A stretch of 46,491 nucleotides of DNA from Opitutales bacterium. GTDB taxonomy: Bacteria; Verrucomicrobiota; Verrucomicrobiia; Opitutales; Opitutaceae. The notes under the pieces were generated by a model. That model saw only the letters and a program-made list of their open reading frames with translations, did no database searches and had not been told where the DNA came from. Below, piece by piece: positions 26,547 through 46,491 of this stretch. Numbering within the stretch: the stretch's first letter is position 1; each line of letters starts with the position of its first letter. The DNA is taken from assembly GCA_900299415.1 (NCBI GenBank), contig OMJT01000072.1, forward strand, positions 1 through 46,491, read 5' to 3'. Both the position numbers and the translations under genes were made by a program.

Positions 26547-28355
26547 ATGAAATCCTACCTGTCTCTTGGAGCATTTCTGATCACCTCGACACTGCTGGTT
26601 GGTGTCGCCGCCGTTTCGGCTCAGCCGGCCCCGGGTGGGGCGGCAGCCCCCGCCGCCGCCGGCCGTGCGGGTGGCCGCGGCGCTGCCGGTCCTCTCGGTG
26701 GACCCGTGGGCACCATCAACGCCGCCACGGCGACGCTCTTTGCGTCGAGTTGCGCAGGTTGCCACGGTACCGGCTTGGAGGGTGGGCGCGCGAAGAGCCT
26801 TTTCAACAAGGAGTGGCTTGGGACGGTCGACGATGCCCGGCTCACCAACGCCATCAAGAACGGCGTGCCGAATACCGAGATGGTGTCGTGGTCGGCAAAT
26901 CTCACCGACGACCAGATCTGGCAGATGGTGACCTATATCCGGCAGGCGACAGCCACGGCCAATCCGCGGCCGCCCTACAATGATGCGCCGGATGGGTTGG
27001 TGATCAAATCGGAGAAGCAGACGTTCAAGGTGGAGGTCCTGACGTCAGATCTCTACACGCCCTGGGGTTTAGCCTTTCTGCCGGATGGGCGGTTGCTGGT
27101 CACGGAGCGCAAGGGCGCGATCCGGATCCTCGACAAGAACAACGTGCTGTCTGCCCCGGTGAAGAACACCCCGGTGCCGCATGTGCAGCAGGACGGCGGT
27201 TTTCTCGACATCGAGGTCCACCCGAACTACGCGCAAAACGGCTGGATCTATCTGTCCTATTCCGAGCCCCAACCGGGCTACGCGGCCCAAATGGCCGCCG
27301 TTGCGACGCTGCAGGGCAAGGTCGGGTCGCAGGTGACCGCCAGCACGAGCGCTCGGACCGCCCTGTTGGCCGCGACGTTCGCCGAGACCCGCAACGATGC
27401 GGCGATCCGGCAGAGCGTTGATGCGCTCGCTGCGGCGGACCTCACCCTTGCCTTGGCCCGCGCCGATGCCTTTGCGGCGATCCAAGCCGGAACCGCCAAG
27501 CTGAGTGCAGCGCAGTTGCCTGGGTTCATCACGGCGGCGACCGCCACCGGCGCGGCGGGTCAGCCGCCTTCGATGACGGTGTGGGTCCGCGGCAAGATCA
27601 ACGCCAACAACGAGTGGACCAATCAGGAGACGATCAAGCGCTTTGCGGAGAACCTCTACACAACGTCGGGCACGCACTTTGGTTCGCGGTTCCTCTTCGA
27701 CACCACGGGACACCTCTATTTCACGATTGGCGAACGCGGCCAGATGACCAACGCGCAGGACCTCTCTATCCCGCTCGGGAAGGTACACCGCATTAATGAC
27801 GATGGCTCGATCCCCAGCGACAACCCGTTTGTAAACACACCCGGCGCGGTCCCCTCGATCTGGACCTACGGACACCGCAACCCCGAAGGACTAGCCTGGG
27901 AGCCGGGAACGGGAGCACTCTGGGAATCCGAGCACGGCCCAACGAACGGCGATGAGGTGAATCTTCTCATCAAGGGCCACAACTATGGCTGGGGTGTGGT
28001 GAGCAAAGGGTCCCAAGGCGGCATCACCCTTACTTCGGCGCCGGGTATGGATGATCCGATCGTTTATTATACTCCGACGCTGGCGCCGGCTGGCATGACC
28101 TTCTACACCGGCGACCGTTATCCCGCTTGGCGCAATACGAGCCTGTTTGTCGGCGGGCTGGCGGGCCAACGCCTCATGCGTCTCGAAGTGGCCAACGGGA
28201 AAGTCACCCACCAGGAAGAGGTCTTCAACACGTTCGGCCGCGTGCGGGACATCATCCAGGGCCCGGACGGGCTGCTCTACATCGCAGTGGCGGCCCCTGG
28301 GGCGTCGCTGCCCGCCGACACTCCGGGAAAAATCATCCGACTGCTGCCCCAGTAA
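26547..28355 (+). CDS. Exported cytochrome c - sorbosone/glucose dehydrogenase fusion
   Basis: The 602-residue protein has a signal peptide, an Ala/Gly/Arg-rich linker (26-53) and a cytochrome c domain (about 55-135) with CAGCH at 69-73 and a Met candidate in NTEMVSW. A PQQ-type glucose/sorbosone dehydrogenase propeller (about 155-602) follows, with TPWGLAFLPDGRLLVTERKG, GGFLDIEVHPNYAQNGWIYL, GTHFGSRFLF, TYGHRNPEGLAWEPGTGALW and SEHGPTNGDEVN. It should oxidise an aldose at the periplasmic face and hand electrons to its own haem. Residues 245-340 are an inserted helical module after YLSYSEPQPG that the normal enzyme lacks; see the repeat entry. It heads the second catabolic operon. No PQQ synthesis genes are in the window. 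Confidence 0.9.
   Translation: MKSYLSLGAFLITSTLLVGVAAVSAQPAPGGAAAPAAAGRAGGRGAAGPLGGPVGTINAATATLFASSCAGCHGTGLEGGRAKSLFNKEWLGTVDDARLTNAIKNGVPNTEMVSWSANLTDDQIWQMVTYIRQATATANPRPPYNDAPDGLVIKSEKQTFKVEVLTSDLYTPWGLAFLPDGRLLVTERKGAIRILDKNNVLSAPVKNTPVPHVQQDGGFLDIEVHPNYAQNGWIYLSYSEPQPGYAAQMAAVATLQGKVGSQVTASTSARTALLAATFAETRNDAAIRQSVDALAAADLTLALARADAFAAIQAGTAKLSAAQLPGFITAATATGAAGQPPSMTVWVRGKINANNEWTNQETIKRFAENLYTTSGTHFGSRFLFDTTGHLYFTIGERGQMTNAQDLSIPLGKVHRINDDGSIPSDNPFVNTPGAVPSIWTYGHRNPEGLAWEPGTGALWESEHGPTNGDEVNLLIKGHNYGWGVVSKGSQGGITLTSAPGMDDPIVYYTPTLAPAGMTFYTGDRYPAWRNTSLFVGGLAGQRLMRLEVANGKVTHQEEVFNTFGRVRDIIQGPDGLLYIAVAAPGASLPADTPGKIIRLLPQ
27279..27566 (+). repeat. Helical-hairpin module, copy A (in sorbosone dehydrogenase)
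   Basis: Residues 245-340 of the host align with three other exported proteins here. Shared positions include ART-LLAA-F near the first helix end, the second-helix pattern ALAAADLTLALARADAFA, then LQ/IQ-A-G and a KLSAAQLPGF-like end. It lies in a propeller loop and is absent from ordinary family members. Confidence 0.75.
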
Positions 28356-28359
28356 CCCA

Positions 28360-29634
28360 GTGCGGATTTCCAAAGTTCAAATCTCAAGGCTGCCAGGGTT
28401 TGTCCTTGCCGCCTTCCTTCTGGCGGCGTCCACCCGGGCGTCAGCCCAGCCTTATACAGCCGTTAGGACCGGGAATGTCATTGAACTGAAGGACGCTCGG
28501 GCGGAGATGGTCGTGCCGGTGGTTCTTAGCGTCGGACGCCCCTGGCGAATCCAAGTTAAAGGGAAGGATCTGGTCCGGCCCGGCGCTTCCGCCGAGGCAT
28601 TCGAAAATGCCCCGGGCCTGAACGGCATGCCCTTGCTCGCCCCGTACGCAAACCGTCTCGACCAGACCGCGTTCTACGCCAACGGCAAGAAGTACAATTT
28701 CGACGTGGAGCTCGGCAATGTGCGCGGCCCGATCCCGAGCACCGGCTTTGTTGGCGGGTACAAGGGCTGGGAGCTCGTGGAGTCGAAGGCCGACGCCACT
28801 GGCGCGTGGGCCACGTGCAGGCTGGATTTCTACAGGAATCCGGCATTCATGAAGCAGTTTCCCTTCGCGCACACCATCACCATCACCTATCGGGTTGCGA
28901 ATGGCACGCTCGAGGTGAAGACGCGCCTGGATAACCTGAGCACGGATCCCATGCCGGTGGTGATTGGCTACCATCCCATCTACGAATTGCCCGACGGCAA
29001 TCGCGACGACTGGACGGTTTCGCTCGATGCGAGGACGCACTGGATTGAGATCCCGCAACGTTTGCCGACCGGTGAAACCCAGCCGATCGAGAATTTCTTC
29101 GGCTCCGATCGCACTGCGATCCAACTCAAGAAGTACGGCCTGATCGACGACGTGTTCACGGACCTCGTCCGCGATGAGAACGGGCGCGCCACGATGAAGC
29201 TCATGTACAACGGCAAGGAGCTGCATGCGATCCTCGGACCGAAGTACAAGACCGTCCTGGCCTGGTCCACGGCACTGCCCGCGGGCGGTGGCGGTGGTGG
29301 CCGCGGAGGTAGCCAAGGCGGCGGTGGTGGCGGTGCCCGAGGTGGCGGTCAGGGTGCGGCGGCAGGTGCCGGCCGCGGGGCTGGTGCGGCGCCTGCGGCT
29401 TCCGGTCCGTTTCCGGTTGATCCGGCCGAGGGCGTGAAGATCGCGCCCCCGGCGGTCGCGCGCGCCGAAGGCGCACCGGCCCCGACGACGAAGGGTTTCA
29501 TCGCCTTTGAACCGATGGTGGCCATCACCAATGCCCTCAACCTTGCCGAGAAGGGCGTCTATAAGGATTTGCAAAGCATTCCCCCGGGTGGCTCGTGGGA
29601 AGAGAGTTTCTGGATCACCACCAAAGGATACTGA
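28360..29634 (+). CDS. Exported aldose 1-epimerase-like protein
   Basis: This 424-residue protein begins at GTG 28360, giving a clear signal peptide (VRISKVQISRLPGFVLAAFL, then LAASTRASAQ). The body matches GalM-type mutarotases: LNGMPLLAPYANRL, the strand pattern GFVGGYKGWELVESKAD, PFAHTITITYRVANGTLEVK and IGYHPIYELPDG with the conserved His. These enzymes equilibrate sugar anomers, here supplying the right anomer to the dehydrogenase encoded just upstream. An insertion of about 40 Gly/Arg/Ala residues (308-348) interrupts the domain before the last conserved strands (FEPMVAITNALNLAEKG and the C-terminal SWEESFWI). The active-site Glu was not confidently placed. It lies 4 bp after the dehydrogenase stop. 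Confidence 0.85.
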   Translation: MRISKVQISRLPGFVLAAFLLAASTRASAQPYTAVRTGNVIELKDARAEMVVPVVLSVGRPWRIQVKGKDLVRPGASAEAFENAPGLNGMPLLAPYANRLDQTAFYANGKKYNFDVELGNVRGPIPSTGFVGGYKGWELVESKADATGAWATCRLDFYRNPAFMKQFPFAHTITITYRVANGTLEVKTRLDNLSTDPMPVVIGYHPIYELPDGNRDDWTVSLDARTHWIEIPQRLPTGETQPIENFFGSDRTAIQLKKYGLIDDVFTDLVRDENGRATMKLMYNGKELHAILGPKYKTVLAWSTALPAGGGGGGRGGSQGGGGGGARGGGQGAAAGAGRGAGAAPAASGPFPVDPAEGVKIAPPAVARAEGAPAPTTKGFIAFEPMVAITNALNLAEKGVYKDLQSIPPGGSWEESFWITTKGY

Positions 29635-29643
29635 CCTTTTTCT

Positions 29644-31023
29644 ATGAAAACCCCCCGCAATCTTGCCCTTGGCCTGCTCATCGCCTCCGGATGGGCGGTC
29701 ACCTCATTTGCCCAGCCGGCCGCTGCGCCCGCCCCGGCGGCGCCGCTGGTCCCCCTGAACGCTCCGCAGTTTGCGGCGGTCTCGGCGATGAACGCCGCGC
29801 TCGCGCCGCTCAACCAGGCACTGACCGTCGCCCGCGACGCCCTGACGGCGGCCTCCCTCACGTTGCCGACCAATGCGCAGGACATCAGCGCCAAGGCGGA
29901 TGCCGTCGCGCGGGCGGACCTCGCCGTCGCCAACGCTCGCGCCGCCGCGATTGCAACGCTCCAATCGAGTGCCAATCGTTTGAACGCGGGGCAGGTTCAG
30001 AACCTGATCACGCCCGCTGGCCGCGGCGGCCGCGGCGGGGCCCCCGCGCCGCTGCCTCCGACTGTCGCCCCCGGCGCCGTCGTCGAGAAACTCGCGACGC
30101 TCCCGCGCGAGAGCTACACGGTCGGCATGCCCTTCACCGAGGGCGCCACCAGCGCGCCCAACGGCGACGTGTACTTCGTGGAGCAGAACAGCAGCAAGAT
30201 CATGAAGTGGAGCGTGGCCGACAAGACCCTGTCGGTTTTCATGCACCCTGCCGGCTACGCCAACGGCATGTCGTTCGACTACAAGGGCAACCTCATCGTC
30301 TGCGCCGATGAGCGGAATGAGCTTTGGTCCGTTTCGCTGACCGAAAAGGAAACCATCCCGTACCCGGCGCCGCTTAACCCGGCGGTGGGTGACCCGGATC
30401 GTCCCGCGACCCTCACCCGGCCGAAAGTCACGGTGCTGATGGATGGAAAATACAATGGCAAGCTGCTCGGCGGCCCGAACGACGTCTGGTGCGCGCCGAA
30501 CGGTGACCTCTATTTCTCCGATCCGTATTATGCGCGGAGTTGGTGGAACCCGTCCAACCGCCCCTCGGAGCAGGATCAGCGCACCATCTATTTTCTCTCC
30601 GCCGACCGGAAGACCTTCAGGCGCGCGGTTGCCGACTTCAACAACGTCGCCGGTGTGGCCGGCACGCCGAACGGCATCATCGGTACGCGGGACGGCAAAA
30701 CCCTCTACGTCGCGAACATCACCGGCGGCGAAACCTACGGCTACGATATCCAGCCCGATGGGTCCCTCACGAACAAGCGGGTGGTTTGTCATTCCGGTTC
30801 CGACGGCATGACCCTCGACAACCAAGGCAACCTCTACATGAGCAGCGGCGGCGTTTCCGTGTATAGCACGAAGACCGGCCAGCTGATCGGCGTCATCCCG
30901 GTGCCCGAGGGTCCGGCGAACGTGGCCTTCGGTGGCCCGGACCACTCGATGCTCTACATCACCGCCCGCACCGGCTTCTACGCCATCCAGACGAACGTCA
31001 AAGGCGAGAACCCCGGGAAATAA
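29644..31023 (+). CDS. Exported SMP-30/gluconolactonase-family protein
   Basis: This 459-residue protein has a signal peptide (1-23), the helical module at about 38-124, a short GRGGRGG linker and then an SMP-30/gluconolactonase six-blade propeller (about 145-459). Metal-ligand candidates are Glu166 in PFTEGATS, Asn in GGPNDVWCAPNGDLYF and Asp in SGSDGMTLDNQGNLYM, the family's standard trio. Lactonases of this family open sugar lactones made by dehydrogenases such as the one encoded two genes upstream, giving the free acid. It is therefore a good fit for the second step of a periplasmic oxidation route. The inserted module lies before the catalytic domain rather than inside it, unlike the other hosts. 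Confidence 0.88.
   Translation: MKTPRNLALGLLIASGWAVTSFAQPAAAPAPAAPLVPLNAPQFAAVSAMNAALAPLNQALTVARDALTAASLTLPTNAQDISAKADAVARADLAVANARAAAIATLQSSANRLNAGQVQNLITPAGRGGRGGAPAPLPPTVAPGAVVEKLATLPRESYTVGMPFTEGATSAPNGDVYFVEQNSSKIMKWSVADKTLSVFMHPAGYANGMSFDYKGNLIVCADERNELWSVSLTEKETIPYPAPLNPAVGDPDRPATLTRPKVTVLMDGKYNGKLLGGPNDVWCAPNGDLYFSDPYYARSWWNPSNRPSEQDQRTIYFLSADRKTFRRAVADFNNVAGVAGTPNGIIGTRDGKTLYVANITGGETYGYDIQPDGSLTNKRVVCHSGSDGMTLDNQGNLYMSSGGVSVYSTKTGQLIGVIPVPEGPANVAFGGPDHSMLYITARTGFYAIQTNVKGENPGK
29755..30015 (+). repeat. Helical-hairpin module, copy B (in SMP-30 protein)
   Basis: Residues 38-124 show the module's two-helix pattern: LNAPQFAAVSAMNAAL in the first helix, DALTAAS, then a second helix ADAVARADLAVANARAAAI with LQSSANRLNAGQVQNLI at its end. 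That end is close to SPHRVTPAQVQNLA of copy C. Confidence 0.75.
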
Positions 31024-31032
31024 GGCCACCAG

Positions 31033-31051
31033 GATTCCGGTCATCGGAATC
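31033..31051. other. Intercistronic hairpin between SMP-30 and TonB genes
   Basis: GATTCCG (31033-31039), loop GTCAT, and CGGAATC (31045-31051) form a perfect 7-bp stem. No T-run follows, so it is more likely an RNA-stability or attenuation element than a full terminator. The TonB receptor gene starts 12 bp later, immediately after a GAGGAG. Confidence 0.5.
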
Positions 31052-31062
31052 TTACCGAGGAG

Positions 31063-33099
31063 ATGAAGCTTTGCCTTCGGCTGGGCGCCGGCTTGGGCGC
31101 TTTGCTTCCGTCGTGCGCCCTGGCCGCGGCCTCGGGTCCGACTACGGTGCTGGAGCCGTATGTGGTCACCGCGGCCCGGGCGCCGCAGACGACGGAGCAG
31201 CTCCCGGTCGCCGTGGATGTCTTCGGTGGGGACGAACTGCAGGCCTCTCCGGCGTCGACGGTCGACGAAGCCTTGCGCGCGTCCGCCGCGTTTTCGCTGT
31301 TCCGGCGGAGCGGCTCGCTGATCGCCAACCCCACGGCCCAGGGGGTCTCCCTGCGCAATATCGGCCCCAGCGGAGCCAGCCGCTCCTTGGTCCTGCTCGA
31401 CGGGGTGCCGCTGAACGATCCCTTTGGCGGCTGGGTGGCCTGGAGCTCCGTTCCGGTCGGCTCATTGGATCGTGTGGAAATTTTGCGGGGAGGAGGCTCG
31501 GGCGCCTGGGGCAACGCCGCCCTGAGCGGCACGGTGCAGCTCTTCAGCGCCGCGCCGGACCAGAATGCGGGGCAGGCGACGGCCACGTTCGGCGATTTCG
31601 GCTGGAAGAGCGGGGAGGCCGGGGTGAGCCAGCGTCTCGGTGCCTCGACCTTGGGCCTGAGCCTGCGATCTTTTTCCTTCGGTGGTTTTCAGGTCGTCGG
31701 CCCGGCCCAGCGGGGCCCGGTGGACCAGCGGCTTTCCTCGCGCCATCAGTCGGGCCGGCTGAGCTGGCGCACAAACCTCGGCGGGCAGACGGCCCTGCAG
31801 CTGAGCGGTCGGTATTTCCACGAGAAGCGGGGGAATGGCACCCCGTTGCAGAACAACGAGAGCGAGGCGGGCCAGGTGGCGGCCTCCCTTTCCGGGACTG
31901 GTTCGGCGCAGCTCACCTGGAATGCGACGGCGTACTATCAGGAGCAGAGCTTCGCCAGTTTCTTCTCTTCCGTGAATGCCACCCGCACGGTTGATACTCC
32001 GGCCAATTACCAGTTCGACGTGCCGGCCACCGCCGGCGGGGCGTCGGTGGCGGTGGCATGGCAGAAGGCGCGGTCGACGACGAGCGCCGGGGTCGATCTC
32101 CGCCGCGTCAAAGGTGAAACCCGCGAACGATTCCTCTTCGCGAGCGGCCAGTTCACCCGGGTGCGCCGGGCCGGGGGTGAGCAGACGTTCGCCGGCATCT
32201 TTCTCAATCACGACCGGGCCCTGGCGGAAACGTGGCGGGGCTCCATCGGGGCCCGCCTGGATTCCTGGGACAATGCGGAGGGGCACCGCCGGGAAACAGA
32301 CAGTGCGACCGGCGCCATCGTGCGGGACGACCGCTATGCGGCGCAGCGGGGCTTCGAGTTCAGTCCCCAGCTCGGACTGGTCTGGACACCGGCCACCGGA
32401 CTCAAGCTGCGCAGCTCGGCCTACCGCGCCTTTCGCGTTCCCACGCTGAATGAATATTTCCGGCCCTTTCGGGTGGGGGCGTTGACAACCGAGGCGAACC
32501 CGGCCCTGCAACGCGAATCCCTCACCGGCGGCGAACTGGGCATCGATTTCAACCGGGGACATTTTCGCGTGTCCGGAACGGCATTTGTGAACGACCTGTG
32601 GAACGCGGTCGCCAATGTGACGCAGACCCCCACCGCCCGCACACGGATGAACCTCGATCGAGCGAGGATCGAAGGGCTGGAGCTCACCGGTGATTGGCGT
32701 CCGGTTCCAACCCTGCGGCTGCATGCGGACGGCTTGTTCAGCAATGCCCGGGTTCGCCAGGCGGTGGTGCGGCCGGCCTTGCAGGGCAAACGCCTCGCCC
32801 AGACCCCCCGCTTGGCGTTCTCCACAGGATTCGATTGGCAGCTCGCCAAGAATTGGAAACTGAATTCAATGCTGCGGCATGCGAGCAGTCAGTTCGAGGA
32901 CGACGAAAACAGCCTGGTGCTCAAGTCGGCCACAACGTTGGACCTGGGCCTCAGCAAACGCTGGTCATCCGGCCTGGAGCTTTATTTTGCCGTGGAAAAT
33001 CTGCTGGACCGGCGCAGTGAGACGGGGCTCGGAGCCGACGGGATCGTCACGCTCGGGCCGCCCCGGCTGGGCCGGGCCGGCGTGAGGCTGCACTGGTGA
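31063..33099 (+). CDS. TonB-dependent outer-membrane receptor
   Basis: This 678-residue outer-membrane protein has a signal peptide, a TonB-box-like [11 protein letters not shown] near residue 28, a plug domain ([15 protein letters not shown]-type start, [57 protein letters not shown]) and a 22-strand barrel ending in an aromatic residue (VRLHW), as required for BAM insertion. The plug resembles BtuB/FepA-type receptors, not SusC. It lies inside the sugar-oxidation operon, so it may import a sugar, sugar acid or the PQQ cofactor; metal or cobalamin uptake cannot be excluded. Its TGA overlaps the GTG start of glcD (33096-33099), an unexpected coupling of an outer-membrane receptor to a cytoplasmic oxidase. 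Confidence 0.92.
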
Positions 33100-34544
33100 C
33101 CACGCTCCTCCAACGCCTGATTGCCCTGCTGCCCCCGGGGCGCACGCTGCTCGACCCGGCACAGTTGGCGGCCTATGAAAGCGACGGCCTGACGGCATTC
33201 CGGAGCACGCCCCTGGGCGTGGTCGTGCCGGAATCCCAGGAAGAGGTGATCGCCTTGGTGCGGTTCTGCCACGCGGAGAAGCTACCGTTCGTGGCCCGCG
33301 GGAGCGGGACCGGACTCTCGGGCGGTTCGCTGCCGATTGCGGGTGGCATCGTGATTGCGCTCAACCGGCTCAATCGGATCCTGCAAGTGGATCCCGCGCA
33401 ACGTATCGCGGTGGTCGAGCCTGGCGTGGTCAATCTCGCGGTCACGGCGGCCGCGCGACCATACGGCCTGCATTTTGCCCCGGACCCCTCGAGCCAGTCG
33501 ATCTGCACCATCGGTGGCAACGTGGCGTTCAACTCCGGCGGGGCGCACTGCCTGAAGTACGGGATGACCTCGAACCACGTGCTCGGCCTCAAGGCGGTGC
33601 TGGCGACCGGCGAGATCGTTGAATTCGGTGGAGCCAGCCGCGAACAGGTTGGGCCTGACTGGACGGGCTTGTTCGTCGGGCATGAGGGACTGTTCGGCGT
33701 GGTGCTGGAGGTGACGCTGCAGCTGCTGCCGGCCGCCGAGACCTTCCACACCGTGCTCGCCGGCTACCGTTCGCTTGAGGCGGCCGGCGATGCCGTCGCC
33801 GCCGTGATCGCGAGCGGACTGCTCCCGGGGGCGATCGAGATCATGGACGCACTCGCCCTGGAGGCCGCGGTGGCGGCCGTGCACGCGGACTATCCGCCGG
33901 GTTCGGCGGCCGTGCTGATCGTCGAGTTGGAGGGGCCGCGCGAAGTGGTCGCGGCGGACCTGCTCCGGCTGGATGAGATCCTCGCGGCGAGCGGCGCGGC
34001 CGAAGTGCGCGTGGCCCGCGATGCCGCGGAGCGTCTGGCGATCTGGAAGGGTCGGAAGAGCGCGTTCAGCGCGGTGGGGCGCCTGTCGCCGGACTTCATC
34101 GTGCAGGACGGCGTGGTGCCGCGGCGTAGGCTGGGGGAGGCCCTGCGGCGCATCGGCGAAATGGCCGCCGGTTCGGGGGTGCGGGTGGCGAACGTGTTTC
34201 ACGCGGGCGACGGAAACCTGCATCCGCTGATCATGTACGATGGCCGGATCCCCGATGCATTCACGCGGGCGGAAGCCCTCGCTGGAAAGATTCTGCGCAT
34301 GTGCGTCGAAATGGGCGGATCGATCACCGGCGAGCATGGTGTCGGAGCCGAGAAGCGCGACTACATGCCGGAGATGTTCACCGCAGACGAACTCGACTGT
34401 TTGGGGCGCATCCGGGCGGCGTTTGACCCGCTGGGCATTGCCAACCCGGGCAAGATGTTTCCGTCAGGTGAACCGCCGGTGATGAGCTTGGGGCAACGCG
34501 GCCTGCATCCTTTGGAGCAGGCGGGGACCATTTCACGAGAATGA
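33096..34544 (+). CDS. glcD: Glycolate/D-lactate oxidase FAD subunit
   Basis: This 482-residue protein matches GlcD: FAD-binding PCMH domain with [39 protein letters not shown] and [12 protein letters not shown], and a C-terminal FAD-oxidase domain with [16 protein letters not shown] and [13 protein letters not shown]. It oxidises glycolate to glyoxylate, or D-lactate to pyruvate, together with GlcE and GlcF at the inner membrane, feeding electrons to the respiratory chain. It starts at GTG 33096, overlapping the receptor stop, and its own TGA overlaps the glcE ATG. Glycolate is the expected by-product of pentose breakdown by the FAH-type pathway, which explains its place here. D-lactate as substrate is the alternative. 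Confidence 0.93.
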
Positions 34545-35629
34545 ATCCTGGAGAGGTGGCGAAGATTTCCTCCTGGGACCCGAGTTCGACTGCCGAGCTC
34601 GTCGAGGCCGTGCGTGCCGCTAAGCGGGTCATTGCCGTGGGCGCGCAGACCAAACCACGGCTGTCCTCCGTGGGCTCAGACGTGGCGAGGATCTCAACCG
34701 CGAAGCTGCGCGGAATTTCCGAATACGAGCCGAGCGAGTTTACCTTTACTGCCTGGGCGGGAACGCCGGTGAAGGAGATCGCCACGGTCCTGGCCGAACG
34801 CGGACAGTACCTGCCCTTCGATCCGCCCCTGGCGGAGACCGGAGCGACGCTCGCGGGCACCGTGGCGGCGGGCTTGAGCGGGCCGGGTCGTTTTCGTTTC
34901 GGCGGCCTGCGCGATTTTATCCTCGGCGTCACGTTGGTCGACGGCACCGGCCGATCGCTGCGGCTGGGTGGCAAGGTGGTGAAGAATGCGGCGGGCTTTG
35001 ATGTACCGAAGTTCCTGGTCGGAAGCATTGGCCGATTCGGCATAATCGCTGGTCTGACGCTCAAGGTGTTTCCGCGTGCGCGACAGACCCGCACGCTTTC
35101 CCTCGAGGCGGAGGACTCGGACGCGCTGACGGCCATCCTGACCGAGGCCGCGCGGACGCGTTGGGAGCTCGATGCCCTGGAGTTGGTGCCCGGGGAAGGC
35201 CGCGTCATGGCGCGACTGGCGGGGCCGGAGTCCGCGCTCGACGCGCTCGCGGCCGAGGTGCTCACGCGCTGGCCGGGCCGGGTGTTGGAGCAATCCGCCG
35301 CGCACGCGCTTTGGTCGGCGCTGGGTGAATTTCGCTGGGCCCATCCGGCGGGCACCCTTGTGAAAGTCGTGCTGGCCCCGGCGCAGGTGAAGCAATTTGT
35401 GGTCTGGGCCGAGGCCCGGAGCAACGTGCGTTCGCAGGTGGGTTCAGGCGGAAATGTCGGCTACCTCTCGTTTCCTGCCGGGACCGCGTCCGAAAAGCTG
35501 CCTTGGCCCGCCCTCACCCTGCGTGGTGTTGGCCCACTGTGGCCCGGCGAAAAGCGGGCCTTTGCCGTGATGCGAGCCGTGAAGGCGGCGCTCGATCCGA
35601 ATGGTCGGTTCCCAGATCTCGACGAATAG
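34541..35629 (+). CDS. glcE: Glycolate oxidase subunit GlcE
   Basis: This 362-residue second FAD-binding subunit is smaller than GlcD. The PCMH region is visible as [59 protein letters not shown] and [20 protein letters not shown]. It lacks GlcD's C-terminal HAGDGN region, as expected for the family. It pairs with GlcD and GlcF in the membrane-associated oxidase. The ATG at 34541 overlaps the glcD TGA, and the glcF start follows its stop by one base, so all three are translated as a set. Nothing unusual was seen. Confidence 0.92.
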
Positions 35630-35630
35630 T

Positions 35631-36905
35631 ATGCAGCACTCGATCAAGCGGGAAGAACATGGCGCGCTCGGCCGACCGATGGCCGAAGCGGTACAAACCT
35701 GTGTGCATTGCGGATTCTGTCTCGCCGCCTGTCCCACCTACCAGGAATTCGGGCAGGAAATGGATTCACCGCGCGGGCGGATCCTCCTGATGAAGCAGGT
35801 GCTCGAGGGAACCCTAGCTCCGGCCGCCGCGCAGCCGCATGTTGATCGCTGTCTTGGATGCCTGGCTTGCGAGCCGGCCTGTCCCAGCGGGGTGCAGTAT
35901 CGCGACCTGATCAGCCCGTTCCGGGCGATGGCCGAACGACGGGGCGTCACTCGATCGCCCGGCGACAGGCTGCGGCGATGGGTGGCTGGGGCCACCATTC
36001 CTTTCCCGGGCCGGTTTCGCCTCGCCCTGACCGGCGCGAAACTCGGGCGGGCGTTGGGACCGCTCGTGCCGGCGGTCTTGCGACCCATGCTAGAATTGGC
36101 TCCCGAACACGTCCCGCACGCGGTGGCGCTGCCACCGGTGACGCCCGCGAAAGGCCGGCGTCGGGCGCGGGTGGCCTTGCTGGCCGGGTGCGCCCAGCAG
36201 GTGCTGGATCCGGACATCAATGTCGCGACCATCGAGGTGCTCGCGCGCAATGGTGTCGAGGTGGTCGTGCCGGAGCAACAGGGCTGCTGCGGTGGACTCG
36301 CCTGGCATACCGGCGACCTGCCCGCCGCACAGGGATTTGCCCGGCGAAACCTTGACGCCTTCCCCGCGAATCTCGACGCGATCCTTACGAACGCCGCCGG
36401 TTGCGGCTCGGCGTTGCACGAATATGATCTCATCTTGGCCGGGACGGCCGACGAATCCCGGGCGGCTGCTTTCCGCAAACGAACGAAGGATGTGAGTGCC
36501 TTTCTCGCCGGGTTGGGGTTGTCAGAAATACCATCCGGCAATGGCGGTGCACGGCGGATCGCCTACCACGACGCATGCCATCTCGCCAACGCCCAAGGCG
36601 TCCGCGAGCAACCGCGGACCCTGCTCAAGATGATCCCGGGAGTGACGTTATGCGAACTGGCCGACCCGCACCTGTGCTGTGGCAGCGCCGGCACGTACAA
36701 TCTCGATCAGCCGGAAACGGCGGCATCACTCGGTGCCCAGAAGGCCCGGGCCGTTGTCTCCACCGGTGCGGATGTGGTGGCGAGCGGAAACATCGGCTGT
36801 CTCACGCAACTCCGCGCCCACCTGCAAAAGATTGGTTCCCCGGTGCGGGTTCGCCACACGATGCAGGTGATGCGGGATGCCTATCGCCAAGGCGAGCGGC
36901 CATGA
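35631..36905 (+). CDS. glcF: Glycolate oxidase iron-sulfur subunit GlcF
   Basis: This 424-residue protein has two 4Fe-4S clusters near the N-terminus (CVHCGFCLAACP, Cys24/27/30/34, and CLGCLACEPACP, Cys74/77/80/84) and two CCG domains (QQGCCGGLAWHTGD and DPHLCCGSAGTY), which is the GlcF layout. It relays electrons from GlcDE to the quinone pool or another acceptor. I prefer the ATG at 35631, one base after the glcE stop, over the in-frame ATG at 35601 inside glcE. It is the last gene of the run and is followed by a terminator-like stem serving the convergent strand. Confidence 0.93.
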   Translation: MQHSIKREEHGALGRPMAEAVQTCVHCGFCLAACPTYQEFGQEMDSPRGRILLMKQVLEGTLAPAAAQPHVDRCLGCLACEPACPSGVQYRDLISPFRAMAERRGVTRSPGDRLRRWVAGATIPFPGRFRLALTGAKLGRALGPLVPAVLRPMLELAPEHVPHAVALPPVTPAKGRRRARVALLAGCAQQVLDPDINVATIEVLARNGVEVVVPEQQGCCGGLAWHTGDLPAAQGFARRNLDAFPANLDAILTNAAGCGSALHEYDLILAGTADESRAAAFRKRTKDVSAFLAGLGLSEIPSGNGGARRIAYHDACHLANAQGVREQPRTLLKMIPGVTLCELADPHLCCGSAGTYNLDQPETAASLGAQKARAVVSTGADVVASGNIGCLTQLRAHLQKIGSPVRVRHTMQVMRDAYRQGERP

Positions 36906-36931
36906 TTCGCCCTTGGTGACTCCCTAGGGCT

Positions 36932-36960
36932 AAAAAAAGTCCCGAGCCGAGGCCCGGGAC
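36932..36960 (-). terminator. Rho-independent terminator for the second ThuA gene
   Basis: GTCCCG (36939-36944) pairs with CGGGAC (36955-36960), extended by GCC/GGC across one mismatch. A run of seven A at 36932-36938 becomes a U-run on the minus strand, giving a standard terminator 29 bp past the ThuA stop. On the plus strand the stem may also help stop glcF transcription. Confidence 0.85.
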
Positions 36961-36988
36961 GTTGGGTGGAGGAGGAGTGCTTGTCCGC

Positions 36989-38233
36989 TTATTTTGCCGG
37001 GTGATTGCCCAGAGTGGTGTCGGCCTCGGTGTAGCCGAGTGCCCAGCGGATGCCCTCAAGCAGATGCTTCTGGTATGCGAGCGCGATCCAGTTGCCGTTT
37101 TCCCGCTCGTAGCCGTAGTCGAGGTTGTTCACGTAAGGCAGGACTACGTCGTCGCGGTGGCCCAGCGACGTATAAAAGACACGGCCTTTGCCGTACATTT
37201 TTGTCCACGCCACTGGCATTCGCGTGCCTTCGAAGTCCATGTCGAGCAGCGAGTGGACCTTGCTCCAGTCGACCCCGGCGATGCGCCCACTCGGCCCCAT
37301 ATGGTAAAACTGGTAGTACTCATCGACGATGGCGACGCCGTCGGGCCAGTCCTTCGTCGCCGGGTGCTTGGCGTCGACCGTATAGATCTTGCGGGCGAGA
37401 TTGCCGTTGCCCGGATGACCCGCAAAACGGGCACCCCCGCTGAGCATCTCCATCTGCTCATCCGACGTGGCGCCGCGGTCTAGGGACGCGTGCAGGGCAA
37501 TCACGGGATGACCGGCGGCCACCCAGTCGAGGAAGGCCTTCTCGTCTGGGATTGGGAGCAGGCCGGTGGTGCTGACAAAGGCGATGGCATCGTAGTTCTT
37601 GAGCGCGGCGGGGCTCATGAAGGTCTGGAAAAGCCTGGACATGACGTCGGCACTGCCGCGGACCGTGGCCATGTTCGGAAAATTACCGGCCAGGTTCTGG
37701 ACTTGCGCGGGTGTGACGCGATGGGGAGACGCTTGGAGGCGGGCGAGGGCATCAGCCCGGCCCAAGGCTAGGTTGCCTTCAGCGGTGCCCAGGGCGGAAG
37801 CCAGGACGGTGAGCTGCGCCGGATTGTCAAACGAGGCGGCGAGGAGAGCGGTCCGAGCCGCGGCCGCGGCCGTACTCAGGCCGGGCAGAAGGGGGCCGGC
37901 GGCGTCCATGACGGCCGCCTGCAGTTCGGCATTCGCTCCTGGGATCGTGCCGGGAAACCCGGTGGGTGCGCCAAGCCCGCCGTTGGTGCCGGTGGTCGGC
38001 AGCGGGGGCTGGATGTGTGGAAACGGATAGTCGGGGTCGTCCGACATCATCGTCACGGTAAACTCGCCATGGGACTTGGCGGCGAGGTCGCGGAGCAGTT
38101 TCTCCGTGTTGGGGATGGAGCCGTGGCGGAAACCGACGGATGCGCCGACAACCAGAATGCGCTTAGGCTCTGCGGCCAGGACAAGGGCCGGGAGGGCCGC
38201 AAGGACCGCGAGGACAAAGGTGGGCTTTTTCAT
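36989..38233 (-). CDS. Exported ThuA-domain protein with inserted helical module
   Basis: The 414-residue protein has a signal peptide (1-20) and a ThuA domain opening KRILVVGASVGFRHGSIPNT, with FVSTTGLLPIPDEKAFLDWV, AGHPVIALHASLDRGA, YYQFYHMGPSGRIAGVDW and a GRVFYTSLGHRDDVV ending. It is related to, but clearly distinct from, the ThuA at 14373-15305. Residues 101-194 are the helical module, placed inside the ThuA fold after the first conserved block. ThuA proteins near sugar dehydrogenases in PVC bacteria are presumed to act on sugars, with no proven reaction that I can cite. It follows the DUF1080-SGNH gene by 24 bp on the same strand. Confidence 0.87.
   Translation of the reverse strand: MKKPTFVLAVLAALPALVLAAEPKRILVVGASVGFRHGSIPNTEKLLRDLAAKSHGEFTVTMMSDDPDYPFPHIQPPLPTTGTNGGLGAPTGFPGTIPGANAELQAAVMDAAGPLLPGLSTAAAAARTALLAASFDNPAQLTVLASALGTAEGNLALGRADALARLQASPHRVTPAQVQNLAGNFPNMATVRGSADVMSRLFQTFMSPAALKNYDAIAFVSTTGLLPIPDEKAFLDWVAAGHPVIALHASLDRGATSDEQMEMLSGGARFAGHPGNGNLARKIYTVDAKHPATKDWPDGVAIVDEYYQFYHMGPSGRIAGVDWSKVHSLLDMDFEGTRMPVAWTKMYGKGRVFYTSLGHRDDVVLPYVNNLDYGYERENGNWIALAYQKHLLEGIRWALGYTEADTTLGNHPAK
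37652..37933 (-). repeat. Helical-hairpin module, copy C (in second ThuA protein)
   Basis: Residues 101-194 carry LQAAVMDAAGPLLPGLS, AARTALLAASF, ALGTAEGNLALGRADALARL and QASPHRVTPAQVQNLA. This aligns over its full length with copies A, B and D and interrupts the ThuA domain. Confidence 0.75.
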
Positions 38234-38257
38234 GGATAGAACAGGACGGGGACGGGC

Positions 38258-39913
38258 TCAACGCCCGCCGGCCAGCGGGCTCAAGGCCGCCTGTACACGA
38301 GCCGCGATTCGGGCGGAACCCTCGGCGTCGGGATGGACGCCATCAAGGGTGAGGTTGGCTGCGTCCTTCATGGCATCGTGGAGATCGATGACCGTGGCGC
38401 TCATGGTACGCGCGAGTGCGTCGAGCCGTGCCGGGATGTCCCCCGCGATCAGCTTGGCGTCCACGCCGCCCGCTCCCGTGAATGCCGGCGGCGGCTTCGC
38501 AAAGAAGAGCCTCGGCCGCGCGGCGCCGGCGGCGAACGTCGTCGCCAGCGCGCGATAGTCGGCCTCGAACGCGGCGGCATTGCGCCAGTTCTCCGGCTTG
38601 CTGTCGTTGGTGCCAAACACAAACACGACGATGTCGGCGTCAAAATCGAGCGCGGCGGTGAGCGCAGGCTGGATCCAAACGGAGGAGTCGCCGCCCTTCT
38701 GGACGGTGGCGCCAGGGAAGGCGAAATTGCGAACATCCCAGCGCGGTCCAAGTTGACGGGTGAGATTGCTGGCCAGATCGAACCGGGGCGGCAGGTCGTC
38801 CGGTGGCCCGAACTGCGCCGGACCGCTGGGCGCTCCGCCGCGTCCGGGAGGCAGGGCGGCCCCATTGACACTGGTACTGCCGCGGCCCGAGAGGGGAGCG
38901 AGGTTGGCTTGCGGCAGAAACGCCGCCACCGCAGCCGGATTCAACTTGTAAGACGAGGCCTGGAGCCAGGCCCACTGGGCCGCCCGCTGGTTGGCGAGGA
39001 CGAGTTCCGCCTCGCCGAGCGCCGCGACCTTGGCGGCGATCTCCGTCGGCGCCGCGAGACTGGCCGTCGCAACCGCAGCGCGAGCCGCGTTCACGTCAGC
39101 CAGGGCCTTTGCCGGGGCCGCGACCATGGCCCGCACGGCCGCCAACTGCCGGGCGGTGACGTCCGCCAGTTGGACTCCCCCTCGCGGCGTGGTCCCGTTG
39201 ACGGCTCCCGGAAACGGTTGCGCAATCTCGTCGCCCAGGATGGCGACGCGGATGGGCCGGTTGAGGGTGGCGAGGTTGGGTCGCGTGGTCGCCGCGGGCA
39301 TGGCGGCCGGCAACGCGGGGCCTCCCGCGGGCAGTTCCTTCACGCGAATCCGCCGGAATTCCATCACGCCGAGATCAGCCTCGAAGCCAACGCCCCCGGT
39401 GAGGGCCACGCGATAGGAAGGCTCCAGTACTTCCCCGTTGGAGGAGGCAAAGACCCAGGGGCCCTGCACGTATATCTCCAGGGTATTCCACTCCTGCGTA
39501 CGGTGCTTCAGCAGGTCGTAGTAGGGCCCGACCGTGAGAAAATCCCGGACCTGAAGCTGGGTGCCACGGACAAAGACGCCGCCATCGGTCCATTGCATCG
39601 GCCGGAACTCCATCCGCACCACTGCATTCGCCGGCAGTGACTCTCGCGTCGCCATCTGCTGTTGGAGGCGCGGCAAGCGATCATTCACCCGGATCATCCC
39701 GTCCTTGGCCTCGTAGCGTCCGTCGGGACTACTGGTCAGACCGTCGAAGCTCTGTGATTGACCACCGGTGTAGTAGCCCCAGCCCGTCAGGTCACGGCCA
39801 TTGAAGAGCAGGGTGAAGCCTGGTTCGGGTTGAAAGTTGTCAGCCTCCGCCGCGATGGCAGTAGCCGGGGGGAGTAGACATAGCGATGCAGCAAAACACA
39901 GAAGCGATTTCAT
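38258..39913 (-). CDS. Exported DUF1080 - SGNH-like fusion with inserted helical module
   Basis: This 551-residue protein has a signal peptide (1-22), a DUF1080/3-keto-disaccharide hydrolase-type jelly roll (about 30-194; GFTLLFNGRDLTGWGYYTG, NAVVRMEFRPMQWTDGGVFV), then an SGNH-like domain (about 218-551). Block I reads AILGDEIAQ (227-229) instead of GDS, so the usual nucleophile Ser is replaced by Glu. Block III GTND (434-437) and block V DGVHPD (524-529) remain. The helical module (251-342) and a GRGS-GRGG linker are inserted between blocks I and II. DUF1080 proteins bind or hydrolyse sugars, including 3-keto-disaccharides. It diverges from the esterase gene and may share the 40.0-kb operator. 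Whether the second domain is active is doubtful. Confidence 0.85.
   Translation of the reverse strand: MKSLLCFAASLCLLPPATAIAAEADNFQPEPGFTLLFNGRDLTGWGYYTGGQSQSFDGLTSSPDGRYEAKDGMIRVNDRLPRLQQQMATRESLPANAVVRMEFRPMQWTDGGVFVRGTQLQVRDFLTVGPYYDLLKHRTQEWNTLEIYVQGPWVFASSNGEVLEPSYRVALTGGVGFEADLGVMEFRRIRVKELPAGGPALPAAMPAATTRPNLATLNRPIRVAILGDEIAQPFPGAVNGTTPRGGVQLADVTARQLAAVRAMVAAPAKALADVNAARAAVATASLAAPTEIAAKVAALGEAELVLANQRAAQWAWLQASSYKLNPAAVAAFLPQANLAPLSGRGSTSVNGAALPPGRGGAPSGPAQFGPPDDLPPRFDLASNLTRQLGPRWDVRNFAFPGATVQKGGDSSVWIQPALTAALDFDADIVVFVFGTNDSKPENWRNAAAFEADYRALATTFAAGAARPRLFFAKPPPAFTGAGGVDAKLIAGDIPARLDALARTMSATVIDLHDAMKDAANLTLDGVHPDAEGSARIAARVQAALSPLAGGR
38888..39163 (-). repeat. Helical-hairpin module, copy D (in DUF1080-SGNH protein)
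   Basis: Residues 251-342 contain ARQLAAVRAMVAAPAKALAD, AARAAVATAS, AALGEAELVLANQRAAQWAW and LQASSYKLNPAAVAAFL. Placement is between SGNH blocks I and II. Alignment with the other copies is at protein level; the DNA has diverged. Confidence 0.75.
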
Positions 39914-40065: not shown

Positions 40066-41604
<1,539 letters not shown>

Positions 41605-43788: not shown

Positions 43789-45480
43789 TCAGGGTGCGGG
43801 GAATGCCGTCAGCGTCTCCCCTGCGTCACGGCGGGTGTCGGGGATGCCGGCCGAGTTGCGGATGGCGAGGCCCGTGACGTCACGCAGCATGAAAAGCGGG
43901 GCGCTGGCGGACTTCTGGGAGCTGAGGTGATCGAACTCGATACCGGCGACGTCCCAGAGGACGACTGCCGGTCGGCCGTCTTCCTTCATGAAACCGATCT
44001 CCACGTCGCGCACGGTGATGTTCTTCGCGTGGCGGATGAACAGGCCGTACGACGGCAAGACGCCGAACATGCTGGGCTCGGGGTAGAGTTTCTCCCCATC
44101 CGGGACATCGTAGGGGTCGCGGTTGGTGGTGTCGGGTGTCGCCGCGCCGCGTCCGCCCGCGAAGAAGTTGTTCGCCAGGGCCTGGGTGCGGACATCGGTC
44201 ATCGTCAGGCCGCCGCGGTAGAGGATGCGGATGTTGCTGAGGTGGACATCCTCGACCGGGTGGCCGGGCAGGCCGGCGATGATCGAGGCGTAGCGCGGGT
44301 CGGCGTCGTAGGCCGTGACGTTGCTGATGGTGATGCGCCGCATCGTGCTCACGGGCATCCCGGCGGGGCCGCGGGCGCGGTTGCCGATGCGGAGGAAGAG
44401 CGGGGAGTTCGAGACGTCGCGCATCGTGATGTTGGTGATGACGACATCCTCGACGGGGCCGCCGTCGACGGTCTCGATCGCGATGCCGCGGCTGCGATCA
44501 AACACGCAGTTGGAAATGCTGATGTTCCGGAAACCACCGTTGGACTCGGTGCCGAACTTGATCCGGCCGGTGGGGCCGTCGCGGTCCGGGGCACGCTCGA
44601 GGGTGCGCTTGAAGGTGCCGTCAAGGAACGTGCCAGGATCGTAGCCGCTGAGCTGGCAGTTGGTGATGGTCACGTTCTCCGTGGGCCGGGCGAAGCCGAG
44701 GGCATAGGAGCTCTTGAGTACGATGCCGTCGTCCTGCGGCGAGTTCACGCTGCAGTTCGAGATCCGGACATTGCGGCAGAGGTCGATGTCGAAGCCGTCG
44801 CGGTTGGTGTCGACCTTGACGTTGTCGATCGTGAGGTTGTCGACGCCCGTGGCGAGGAGGGCGAAGTGTCCGCCCATGTAGAGGGTGATGTCTTTGATCA
44901 CGACGTTGCGGCACAGCTTGAGGGCAATGGCCTTGTTGCCGACGACGACGGGCGGGACCGCTGTGGCGGCCGCCGCGGCCGCAGCGCCGGGGGCGACCGT
45001 GCCGTTGGGGCCGGCAAGCTCACTGATCGGGCCGGCGTTGCGGACGAGGCCCTTGCTGCCGTCGATCTTCCCGGCGCCGGTGATGGTGATATTCTCGAGG
45101 TTCTCGCCCCACATGAGGCTGTTGTGCCAGTGGCTGTGGCCGAAGTCCTGGTACTGGAGGCGGTCGCCCCAGTCGTTGGGCTCGTAGGGGTCGTAGCTGC
45201 CAAACCCCGCCGCCGCCGTGGCGGCGAGGATCGTGGCGCCTTGGTCCAACTGGAGCGTGAGGTTGCTCTTCAGGTGGATCGAGAAGCTCAGGTAAGTGCC
45301 GGCGGGGAACCGGACCGTGCCGCCGCCGGCCGCCGCGGCCGCGTCGATCGCCTTGTTGATGGCGGCGGTGTCGAGGGTCTTGCCGTCGCCCGTGGCGCCG
45401 AACGCGCGGACATCGAAGTCCGAGGCGCGCAGCACCGGGGCGAGGAGGGCGAGGAGCAGAGCAGTGAGGACGCGGATCAT
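43789..45480 (-). CDS. Exported glycoside hydrolase family 28-like protein
   Basis: The 563-residue protein begins at 45480 (MIRVLTALLLALLAPVLRAS signal). A pectate lyase-3-like opening (FDVRAFGATGDGKTLDTAAI) leads into a right-handed parallel beta-helix of GH28 type. Motifs are NRDGFDID, SPQDDGIVLKS (the paired Asp), RIKFGTESNGGFRNI (RIK with GTES where classical polygalacturonases have GHG) and RGIAIETVDGG. The GTES form is usual for bacterial GH28 subfamilies acting on pectin side chains or rhamnogalacturonan. Two low-complexity insertions, APGAAAAAAATAVPP and AGGRGAATPD, are in loops. Its ATG overlaps the TGA of the upstream esterase gene, so the two enzymes are made together, probably against pectin. 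Confidence 0.87.
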   Translation of the reverse strand: MIRVLTALLLALLAPVLRASDFDVRAFGATGDGKTLDTAAINKAIDAAAAAGGGTVRFPAGTYLSFSIHLKSNLTLQLDQGATILAATAAAGFGSYDPYEPNDWGDRLQYQDFGHSHWHNSLMWGENLENITITGAGKIDGSKGLVRNAGPISELAGPNGTVAPGAAAAAAATAVPPVVVGNKAIALKLCRNVVIKDITLYMGGHFALLATGVDNLTIDNVKVDTNRDGFDIDLCRNVRISNCSVNSPQDDGIVLKSSYALGFARPTENVTITNCQLSGYDPGTFLDGTFKRTLERAPDRDGPTGRIKFGTESNGGFRNISISNCVFDRSRGIAIETVDGGPVEDVVITNITMRDVSNSPLFLRIGNRARGPAGMPVSTMRRITISNVTAYDADPRYASIIAGLPGHPVEDVHLSNIRILYRGGLTMTDVRTQALANNFFAGGRGAATPDTTNRDPYDVPDGEKLYPEPSMFGVLPSYGLFIRHAKNITVRDVEIGFMKEDGRPAVVLWDVAGIEFDHLSSQKSASAPLFMLRDVTGLAIRNSAGIPDTRRDAGETLTAFPAP

Positions 45481-46491
45481 GGCGCGGCGGGGGTGAAGGG
45501 CGCCGGCGCGGGGTGATGGATGGCGTTCATCCACCGGATGGCGCGGTCCTGCGTCGCGGTCGTGAGCCGGAGGTAGTCCACGGGCTCGTCGAGGGCGAGT
45601 TTGTCGCCGGCATTGTAGAGCGCATAGGCCTTGCGGGCGTTCGTCACGCCCTGGCGCACCTCGGCGGGGGCCGCGGCGCGGTCCATCGAGGGCTCCACCA
45701 CCAGCACGGAGCGCGGGGCGATGGCCGCGATCAGCTCCGGAAAGTCGTAGGGCAGGCGGTTCTCGTTCCCGATGAAGAAGCCGAGCTTCGGGAGTAGCGG
45801 GTGCACGTCGCTGTAGCGGGCGAGGCCGCCCAGGCCGCGGCTGGCGGTGTCGGTGCGCATCGGGGTGAAGCCGCCGACGGACACGACACTCTTGATGCGC
45901 GAATCGAGGGCCGCGGCGTAGAGTCCAACAGTGCCGCCGATCGAGTAGCCGAAAACGGAGATGCGCTCTGGATCGAGCGCGGCATCCGCGGACAGGGTGT
46001 CGACGGCCTTACGGACATCCTCGACCATCTGGCCCATCATCGACCATTTCGGTTGGCGGTCATAGAATTGCGCGAAGTCCGGCATGCGGCTGCCAAACCC
46101 GAACTGGTCATACGCCAGCACGGCATAACCGGCCTGCACGAGGGCGAGCACCGGGTGGAGATCGGTGCGATAGACCCACATGTAGCCGAGCGGGTAACTA
46201 TAGCCGTGGAGCCAGATGGCCACGGGCAGCTTGGTGCCGGCGGGTGTGTTGTTGGGATAGTAGAGCGTGCCCGACACATTATAGCCGAAGGTGACATTGC
46301 GCTGGGCGGCGAGGCTCTTGGCGGGCTTGTCCGGGGCCGGATCGAACCATCCGAAGGAGGTGCCGTTGCGGGCGATCACCCAGGCAGGAACATCAGGCTT
46401 CAATTGGCCGGGGTTGGGTCCCGCGGGGGCGGCACCGCGTCCGGCGGCAGCGGCTCCAGCCACCGGGGCGGCGCCGCGCCCGGCAGCGGCC
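45477..46491 (-). CDS. Exported alpha/beta hydrolase (acetylxylan-esterase-like), 5' end beyond window
   Basis: The frame stays open to the window edge, so the N-terminus and presumed signal peptide are missing; the GTG at 46463 is not a credible start because in-frame low-complexity residues continue upstream (GRGAAP twice). The visible 337 residues hold an alpha/beta hydrolase with VAIWLHGYSYPLGYMWVYRT, LAYDQFGFGSRMPDF and the nucleophile elbow FGYSIGGTVGLYAA. An acid-histidine region lies near the end (LALDEPVDYL...AIRWMNAIHH). It resembles acetyl-xylan esterase/dienelactone-hydrolase-type proteins of polysaccharide loci. It is upstream of, and ATGA-coupled to, the GH28 gene, suggesting deacetylation or demethylation of pectin before cleavage. 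The substrate is not provable here. Confidence 0.82.
   Translation of the reverse strand, partial: AAAGRGAAPVAGAAAAGRGAAPAGPNPGQLKPDVPAWVIARNGTSFGWFDPAPDKPAKSLAAQRNVTFGYNVSGTLYYPNNTPAGTKLPVAIWLHGYSYPLGYMWVYRTDLHPVLALVQAGYAVLAYDQFGFGSRMPDFAQFYDRQPKWSMMGQMVEDVRKAVDTLSADAALDPERISVFGYSIGGTVGLYAAALDSRIKSVVSVGGFTPMRTDTASRGLGGLARYSDVHPLLPKLGFFIGNENRLPYDFPELIAAIAPRSVLVVEPSMDRAAAPAEVRQGVTNARKAYALYNAGDKLALDEPVDYLRLTTATQDRAIRWMNAIHHPAPAPFTPAAP

Follow-up and report, generated by a model that had tools for sequence, protein, structure and literature searches.

A Spy/CpxP-like helical domain copied into dozens of exported proteins of one Opitutaceae-related genus

The periplasmic chaperone CpxP and the proteins CnrX and ZraP, members of a superfamily of helical hairpin proteins (PF13801 Metal_resist, PF07813 LTXXQ), self-associate through the helices of the hairpin. 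Spy, a chaperone of the same superfamily, also self-associates (PMC8144458). In-frame coding elements are known from the Rickettsia palindromic elements (RPEs) and the PARCELs; the PARCELs are amphipathic repeats of 25 residues, arranged in tandem, with dyad symmetry in their DNA (PMC2996958). Here we report on a helical module of about 85 residues in a stretch of 46,491 nucleotides from an Opitutales bacterium (contig OMJT01000072.1 of assembly GCA_900299415.1; hereafter the window), in which a preliminary description had pointed out one predicted helical segment in four exported proteins. We find that this domain was copied many times within one Opitutaceae-related genus, whose genomes each have it in at least 24 to 37 exported proteins. 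Its sequence places it in the Spy/CpxP superfamily, an identity that was missing from the preliminary description and is established in this analysis. No earlier description of such a module was found in open-licence full-text papers.

Copies of the module, their hosts and insertion sites

The genome from which the window comes (G000) is a draft of 2.09 Mb in 202 contigs and is 76% complete. With a profile built from the four window copies, 24 copies were found in this genome; for the rest of the genus, which is represented by G001 and G002, the counts were 25 and 37. All three assemblies are fragmented, so that these numbers are lower bounds. At least 20 further copies in the incomplete source genome lie outside the window locus; the module is genome-wide, and the restriction to one locus that had first been supposed does not hold. 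Profile E-values range from 1e-15 to 1e-28 in dozens of hosts. The 88 copies fall into about 40 orthologous groups, and within the genus no host carries a second copy (host groups and host families were tallied by us from the tree and the family scans). Orthologous insertions recur in separate assemblies, and an assembly artefact is therefore very unlikely. Presence or absence polymorphism of an insertion between members of the genus was not shown; apparent absences fall at contig ends or in missing genes.

Among all 252 genomes surveyed in the family, 247 have no module match at E≤1e-4, and outside the genus three more copies were found in two genomes (G024 and G842). In G024, two modules occur with linkers in one exported protein of 370 residues (L094:1882-2991, G024:C193), whose gene lies directly before that of a haem-binding dehydrogenase. 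In G842, one copy is N-terminal in a DUF1080 protein of another genus (G842:C105; L276 / L294). This copy looks more Spy-like (it starts with LPPDQRTRL), and an old fusion and a lateral transfer are both possible. Wider surveys took in samples of 372 genomes from the order and 387 from the phylum and scored at most 14 candidates in each genome; the matches were few, weak and distant, and four of them were small stand-alone proteins.

An end-to-end alignment of the copies in the window has 13 invariant columns and 33-39% identity to the first copy, and the positions and translations of all four agree with those first given; no Pfam family covered the four segments in a first Pfam scan of the window. 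The first copy (27282..27533, + strand; genome profile E 5e-30) lies in the propeller of an exported cytochrome c - glucose/sorbosone dehydrogenase (26547..28355, +; GSDH, non-repeat PQQ type), between '...YLSYSEPQPGY' and '...PPSMTVWVRGK'; the host matches Pfam GSDH in two stretches (E 2e-109), Cytochrome_CBB3 and TIGR03606. The second copy (29761..30012, +; E 4e-31) stands between the signal peptide and the propeller of an exported SMP-30/gluconolactonase-like protein (29644..31023, +; Pfam SGL E 7e-28, residues 164-441) and is followed by a GRGGRGG linker. The third copy (37685..37930, - strand; E 3e-32) lies within the domain of an exported ThuA protein (36989..38233, -), after '...DDPDYP', and the Pfam ThuA match (E 5e-29) starts at profile position 38 after the module. 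The full-length model of this host, which is too weak for detail (pLDDT 59.6), has the hairpin between disordered linkers. The fourth copy (38912..39157, -; E 8e-32) belongs to an exported protein that joins a 3-keto-disaccharide-hydrolase-like domain (DUF1080; Pfam 3keto-disac_hyd) to an SGNH/GDSL domain (38258..39913, -; Pfam Lipase_GDSL_2). It splits the SGNH domain after 'RPIRVAILGDEIAQPFPG', directly after the first strand, and leaves DUF1080 intact; the orthologs in G001 and G002 have the module at the same place. Thus the module interrupts a domain in three hosts and precedes it in SMP-30, as had been noticed from the translations, and these exported enzymes are unrelated to each other. 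Three window genes whose sequences resemble a glycolate oxidase set (GlcD, GlcE and GlcF; 33096-36905, +) lie amid the module-bearing hosts.

About 14 unrelated enzyme families serve as hosts: GSDH, SGL, ThuA, GDSL/SGNH, 3-keto-disaccharide hydrolase, xylose-isomerase-like TIM barrel (with a Tat signal), YncE-like propeller, PVC-type haem-binding CxxCH protein (TIGR02604, DUF7133), DUF6797, FGE-sulfatase, dienelactone-hydrolase-like, esterase, PETase-like and GH28. Three copies in the source genome, together with their orthologs, are small exported stand-alone proteins, and the others are fused. A signal peptide was called in 77 of 84 hosts by a crude, simple script; the remaining hosts are cut by contig ends or have a visible leader, and no cytoplasmic host was seen. 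The module is found after the signal peptide, within the catalytic domain or at the C-terminus. ThuA proteins have the module at three distinct sites and DUF1080 proteins at two; insertion therefore happened more than once. A Gly-Arg-Gly-type linker occurs within 40 residues of the module in 75 of 88 copies, compared with 3.7% of other host windows. A recurrent preamble resembles GGRGG-x-x-I-P-G-x-T-x-x-Q and is also present in one stand-alone family (G002:C35, G001:C341).

Empty sites were identified in several host families. In GSDH homologs from Acidobacteria and Caulobacterales, a short Ala/Pro/Gly loop is present instead of the module, and the module-less ThuA homologs G002:C9 and G024:C122 are continuous through the insertion point. 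In all three genus genomes, a sugar isomerase with the module has a tandem paralog that lacks it and is 60-70% identical to it (G000:C105, G001:C26 and G002:C94; L027, L050 and L092). The loop 'VAGGGTFDPRAMT' of the module-less paralog corresponds to linker-module-linker in the module-bearing one, and these pairs constitute a ready natural test pair. In a GH28 protein of G001 (G001:C313), the module takes the place of a loop after 'SNIRILYxGG'; its homolog in the window, an exported GH28-like beta-helix protein (43792..46008, -; 52% identity), has the site empty. Two other exported window proteins without the module, one aldose-epimerase-like (28147-29634, +) and one an esterase (40150-41604, +), have long intradomain linkers of the Gly-Arg-Gly or Ala/Pro/Gly type; the growth of linkers thus extends beyond the module.

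Placement in the Spy/CpxP superfamily

The profile of all 88 copies was aligned by hhalign with that of 21 Metal_resist (PF13801) relatives with an E-value of 9e-6 over 81 columns, which reach from one LTxxQ motif to the other. The score of 34.1 is higher than that of the reversed profile (11.9), of 50 column shuffles (at most 13.9) and of 50 heptad-block shuffles (at most 27.2). Bona fide stand-alone relatives in four further genomes (G340, G368, G701 and G626) share the pattern LTxxQ...ARxxL...I...E(x6)RA...LxxxQ with the module. When these relatives and six modules were joined in one profile, the best matches in the PDB were CpxP (3qzc, E 0.0019), a VirG-like protein and Spy (E 0.016), with ZraP lower; the PDB sequence search with modules alone gave nothing useful. 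The N-terminal Gln of LTxxQ is present in 69 of 88 copies and the C-terminal Gln of L-[NST]-x-x-Q in 66 of 88, and these motifs align with LTEEQ and LSPEQ of the stand-alone proteins. Acidic residue 54 and R61 are conserved in at least 85 of the 88 copies.

The AlphaFold model of the SMP-30 copy (mean pLDDT 94.6) consists of helices at residues 2-34, 40-69 and 77-84, that is, a hairpin and a short third helix, which bears out the helical hairpin that had been predicted. Foldseek ranked CnrX first and ZraP third, and VIA-align gave ZraP a Z-score of 9.2 over 74 residues.

Several observations weigh against this placement. Most single copies fall below the PF13801 threshold (6 of 46 modules match, best E 1.2e-4), and no Foldseek E-value is below 0.001. 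Moreover, unrelated hairpins (F-BAR, efflux-adaptor and hantavirus) score like ZraP in structural alignment; the fold alone is therefore generic, and it is the sequence evidence that carries the placement. Beyond PF13801, no Pfam family recurs in more than two of 46 modules, and the bridging stand-alone proteins of other genera alone are clearly above the PF13801 cut-off. On these grounds we assign the module to a divergent branch of the Spy/CpxP superfamily, and not to PF13801 as curated. Two other identities were rejected: no module column has a conserved Cys, His or terminal Asn as in an intein, and the lack of a conserved His likewise argues against CnrX-like metal sensing.

Age of the copies and possible functions

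In orthologous modules, dN is below dS in every pair, typically 0.2-0.4 of dS. The orthologous copies are under purifying selection, and selection on the protein level, as had been suspected, is thus supported. In most orthologous pairs, though not in all, the module has changed at a slightly higher rate than its host. Paralogous modules average 36% identity, and in the tree the copies group by orthologous host. The fraction of identical codons (0.49 and 0.465) is near the 0.45 expected from codon usage. No palindrome was detected: the fold energy compared with synonymous shuffles has a mean z of -0.35, with 3 of 61 copies below -2. It follows that the module spread before the three species diverged and that its copies have been inherited vertically since. 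The preliminary description had considered a mobile in-frame coding element. The empty sites uphold the spread of an in-frame coding unit, whereas the missing palindrome, the codon agreement and the vertical inheritance speak against current mobility. An active selfish element of the RPE or PARCEL type was rejected, since there is no palindrome and almost no DNA-level similarity between copies, and so was a plasmid, phage or viral source, as searches of plasmids, phages and viral contigs with one copy were negative.

Stand-alone module proteins adjoin one dehydrogenase family, whose similarity to TIGR02604 is weak to moderate. They have the same direction as the dehydrogenase in four contigs (G000:C167, G001:C250, G002:C10 and G024:C193) and are divergent in one (G000:C38). 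Members of this dehydrogenase family in G002:C42 and G001:C68 carry the module as a C-terminal fusion, and the fused copies and the stand-alone proteins form one clade (support 0.92).

The module is best explained as an autonomous domain, built of two long antiparallel helices and a third, short helix, within the Spy/CpxP/CnrX (LTxxQ, Metal_resist) superfamily. As a linker-domain-linker cassette with Gly-Arg-Gly-rich flanks, it was copied into several dozen exported proteins before the genus diversified, that is, in its ancestor, and the insertions lie in tolerant loops or termini; its source was probably a stand-alone module protein of the type that neighbours the dehydrogenase. In the periplasm, the domain may act as a common protein-protein interaction module, the copies probably binding each other or a shared partner and so gathering the host enzymes around haem-binding PVC-type dehydrogenases. 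Among the functions considered, docking or self-association seems the most likely, because Spy, CpxP, CnrX and ZraP self-associate, because otherwise dissimilar hosts all carry the module, and because stand-alone and double-module proteins adjoin a dehydrogenase. On the other side, no receptor protein was found, the hosts span more than one pathway, and next to the relatives of this dehydrogenase in other genera no module could be recognised; conservation, moreover, is mainly on one broad helical face, which could be just the hairpin core. Nor are the profile matches restricted to sugar-oxidation enzymes, as a docking role had first been framed; GH28, FGE, dienelactone-hydrolase-like and esterase proteins are among the hosts too. 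Taken as a whole, a Spy/CpxP-type domain that was copied as a cassette into exported proteins and serves there for docking is, in our judgment, an evenly balanced proposition. Its widest form is more tentative: the domain might be a universal self-associating tag on about 40 exported enzyme groups. Proteins with the module alone or doubled would be the adaptors around haem-binding dehydrogenases, and the whole would form a genus-wide periplasmic assembly, a cellulosome-like metabolon based on a chaperone fold.

The second most likely function is that of a built-in chaperone, in which a Spy/CpxP-like holdase activity would aid folding or solubility of the host after export, within the same chain. 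The module belongs to a chaperone superfamily, its hosts are exported only and of very different folds, and it sits singly in each genus host on flexible linkers, all of which would fit this reading. However, its mean net charge is only +0.5, compared with the strongly basic client-binding face of Spy (PMC8144458), the host families fold module-free in other genera, and stand-alone proteins paired with one dehydrogenase family better fit a partner role. We regard such a chaperone as rather doubtful.

Less probable still is a neutral or selfish in-frame cassette, similar to the Rickettsia palindromic elements, that spread since insertion in tolerated linkers was harmless. The many sites in unrelated genes, the low-complexity flanking linkers that could recombine, the limitation to one genus and two other genomes of the family and the somewhat faster evolution of the modules would be consistent with it. 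But this reading accords poorly with dN well below dS, with acidic residue 54 and R61 being so strongly conserved, with hosts that are nearly all exported and with the lack of a cytoplasmic host, as it does with the missing dyad symmetry, the near absence of DNA-level similarity among copies and the negative plasmid, phage and viral searches with one copy. Finally, convergence of Ala-rich amphipathic helices of no common origin, to which the composition and the weak Pfam matches of single copies might point, is refuted by the profile E-values in dozens of hosts, by the invariant E/R and Gln positions, by shuffled and reversed controls that score lower, and by 24, 25 and 37 matches in the genus against none in 247 of 252 family genomes, a pattern that also settles the early concern that the alignment might be no better than one of shuffled Ala-rich helices.

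Whichever function applies, the module is a clear case, with empty-site paralogs, of one folded domain inserted within many unrelated and still conserved catalytic domains, which makes the evolution of domain insertion directly testable. If the docking role is true, one lineage has invented a modular means of bringing together unrelated periplasmic enzymes, dozens of them, and synthetic assemblies could be built with the tag. If the built-in chaperone is true, nature would here offer a rare example of chaperones encoded within their own clients.

Comparison with known systems

Like the dockerin of cellulosomes, the module is small, helical, common to many exported enzymes and attached by flexible linkers. 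Unlike dockerin, it has no Ca-binding repeat, no cohesin receptor was found, and it also sits inside catalytic domains. With the Rickettsia palindromic elements and the PARCELs (PMC2996958), it shares the in-frame repetition of one coding sequence across numerous unrelated genes of the same genome. The DNA of those elements has dyad symmetry and PARCELs are tandem, whereas the module is a single folded domain, one per genus protein, with old copies and no palindrome.

The closest likeness is to Spy, CpxP, ZraP and CnrX, which resemble the module in being exported, in the full-length profile match, in both LTxxQ motifs and in the helical hairpin; the E(x6)RA pattern is further shared with stand-alone superfamily members of other Verrucomicrobiota. 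The module differs from the superfamily in a consensus without His ligands, in its near-neutral charge and in a 3-residue insertion before the second motif. Furthermore, the superfamily members examined are small stand-alone proteins, periplasmic or membrane-tethered, whereas the module described here is embedded in dozens of enzymes.

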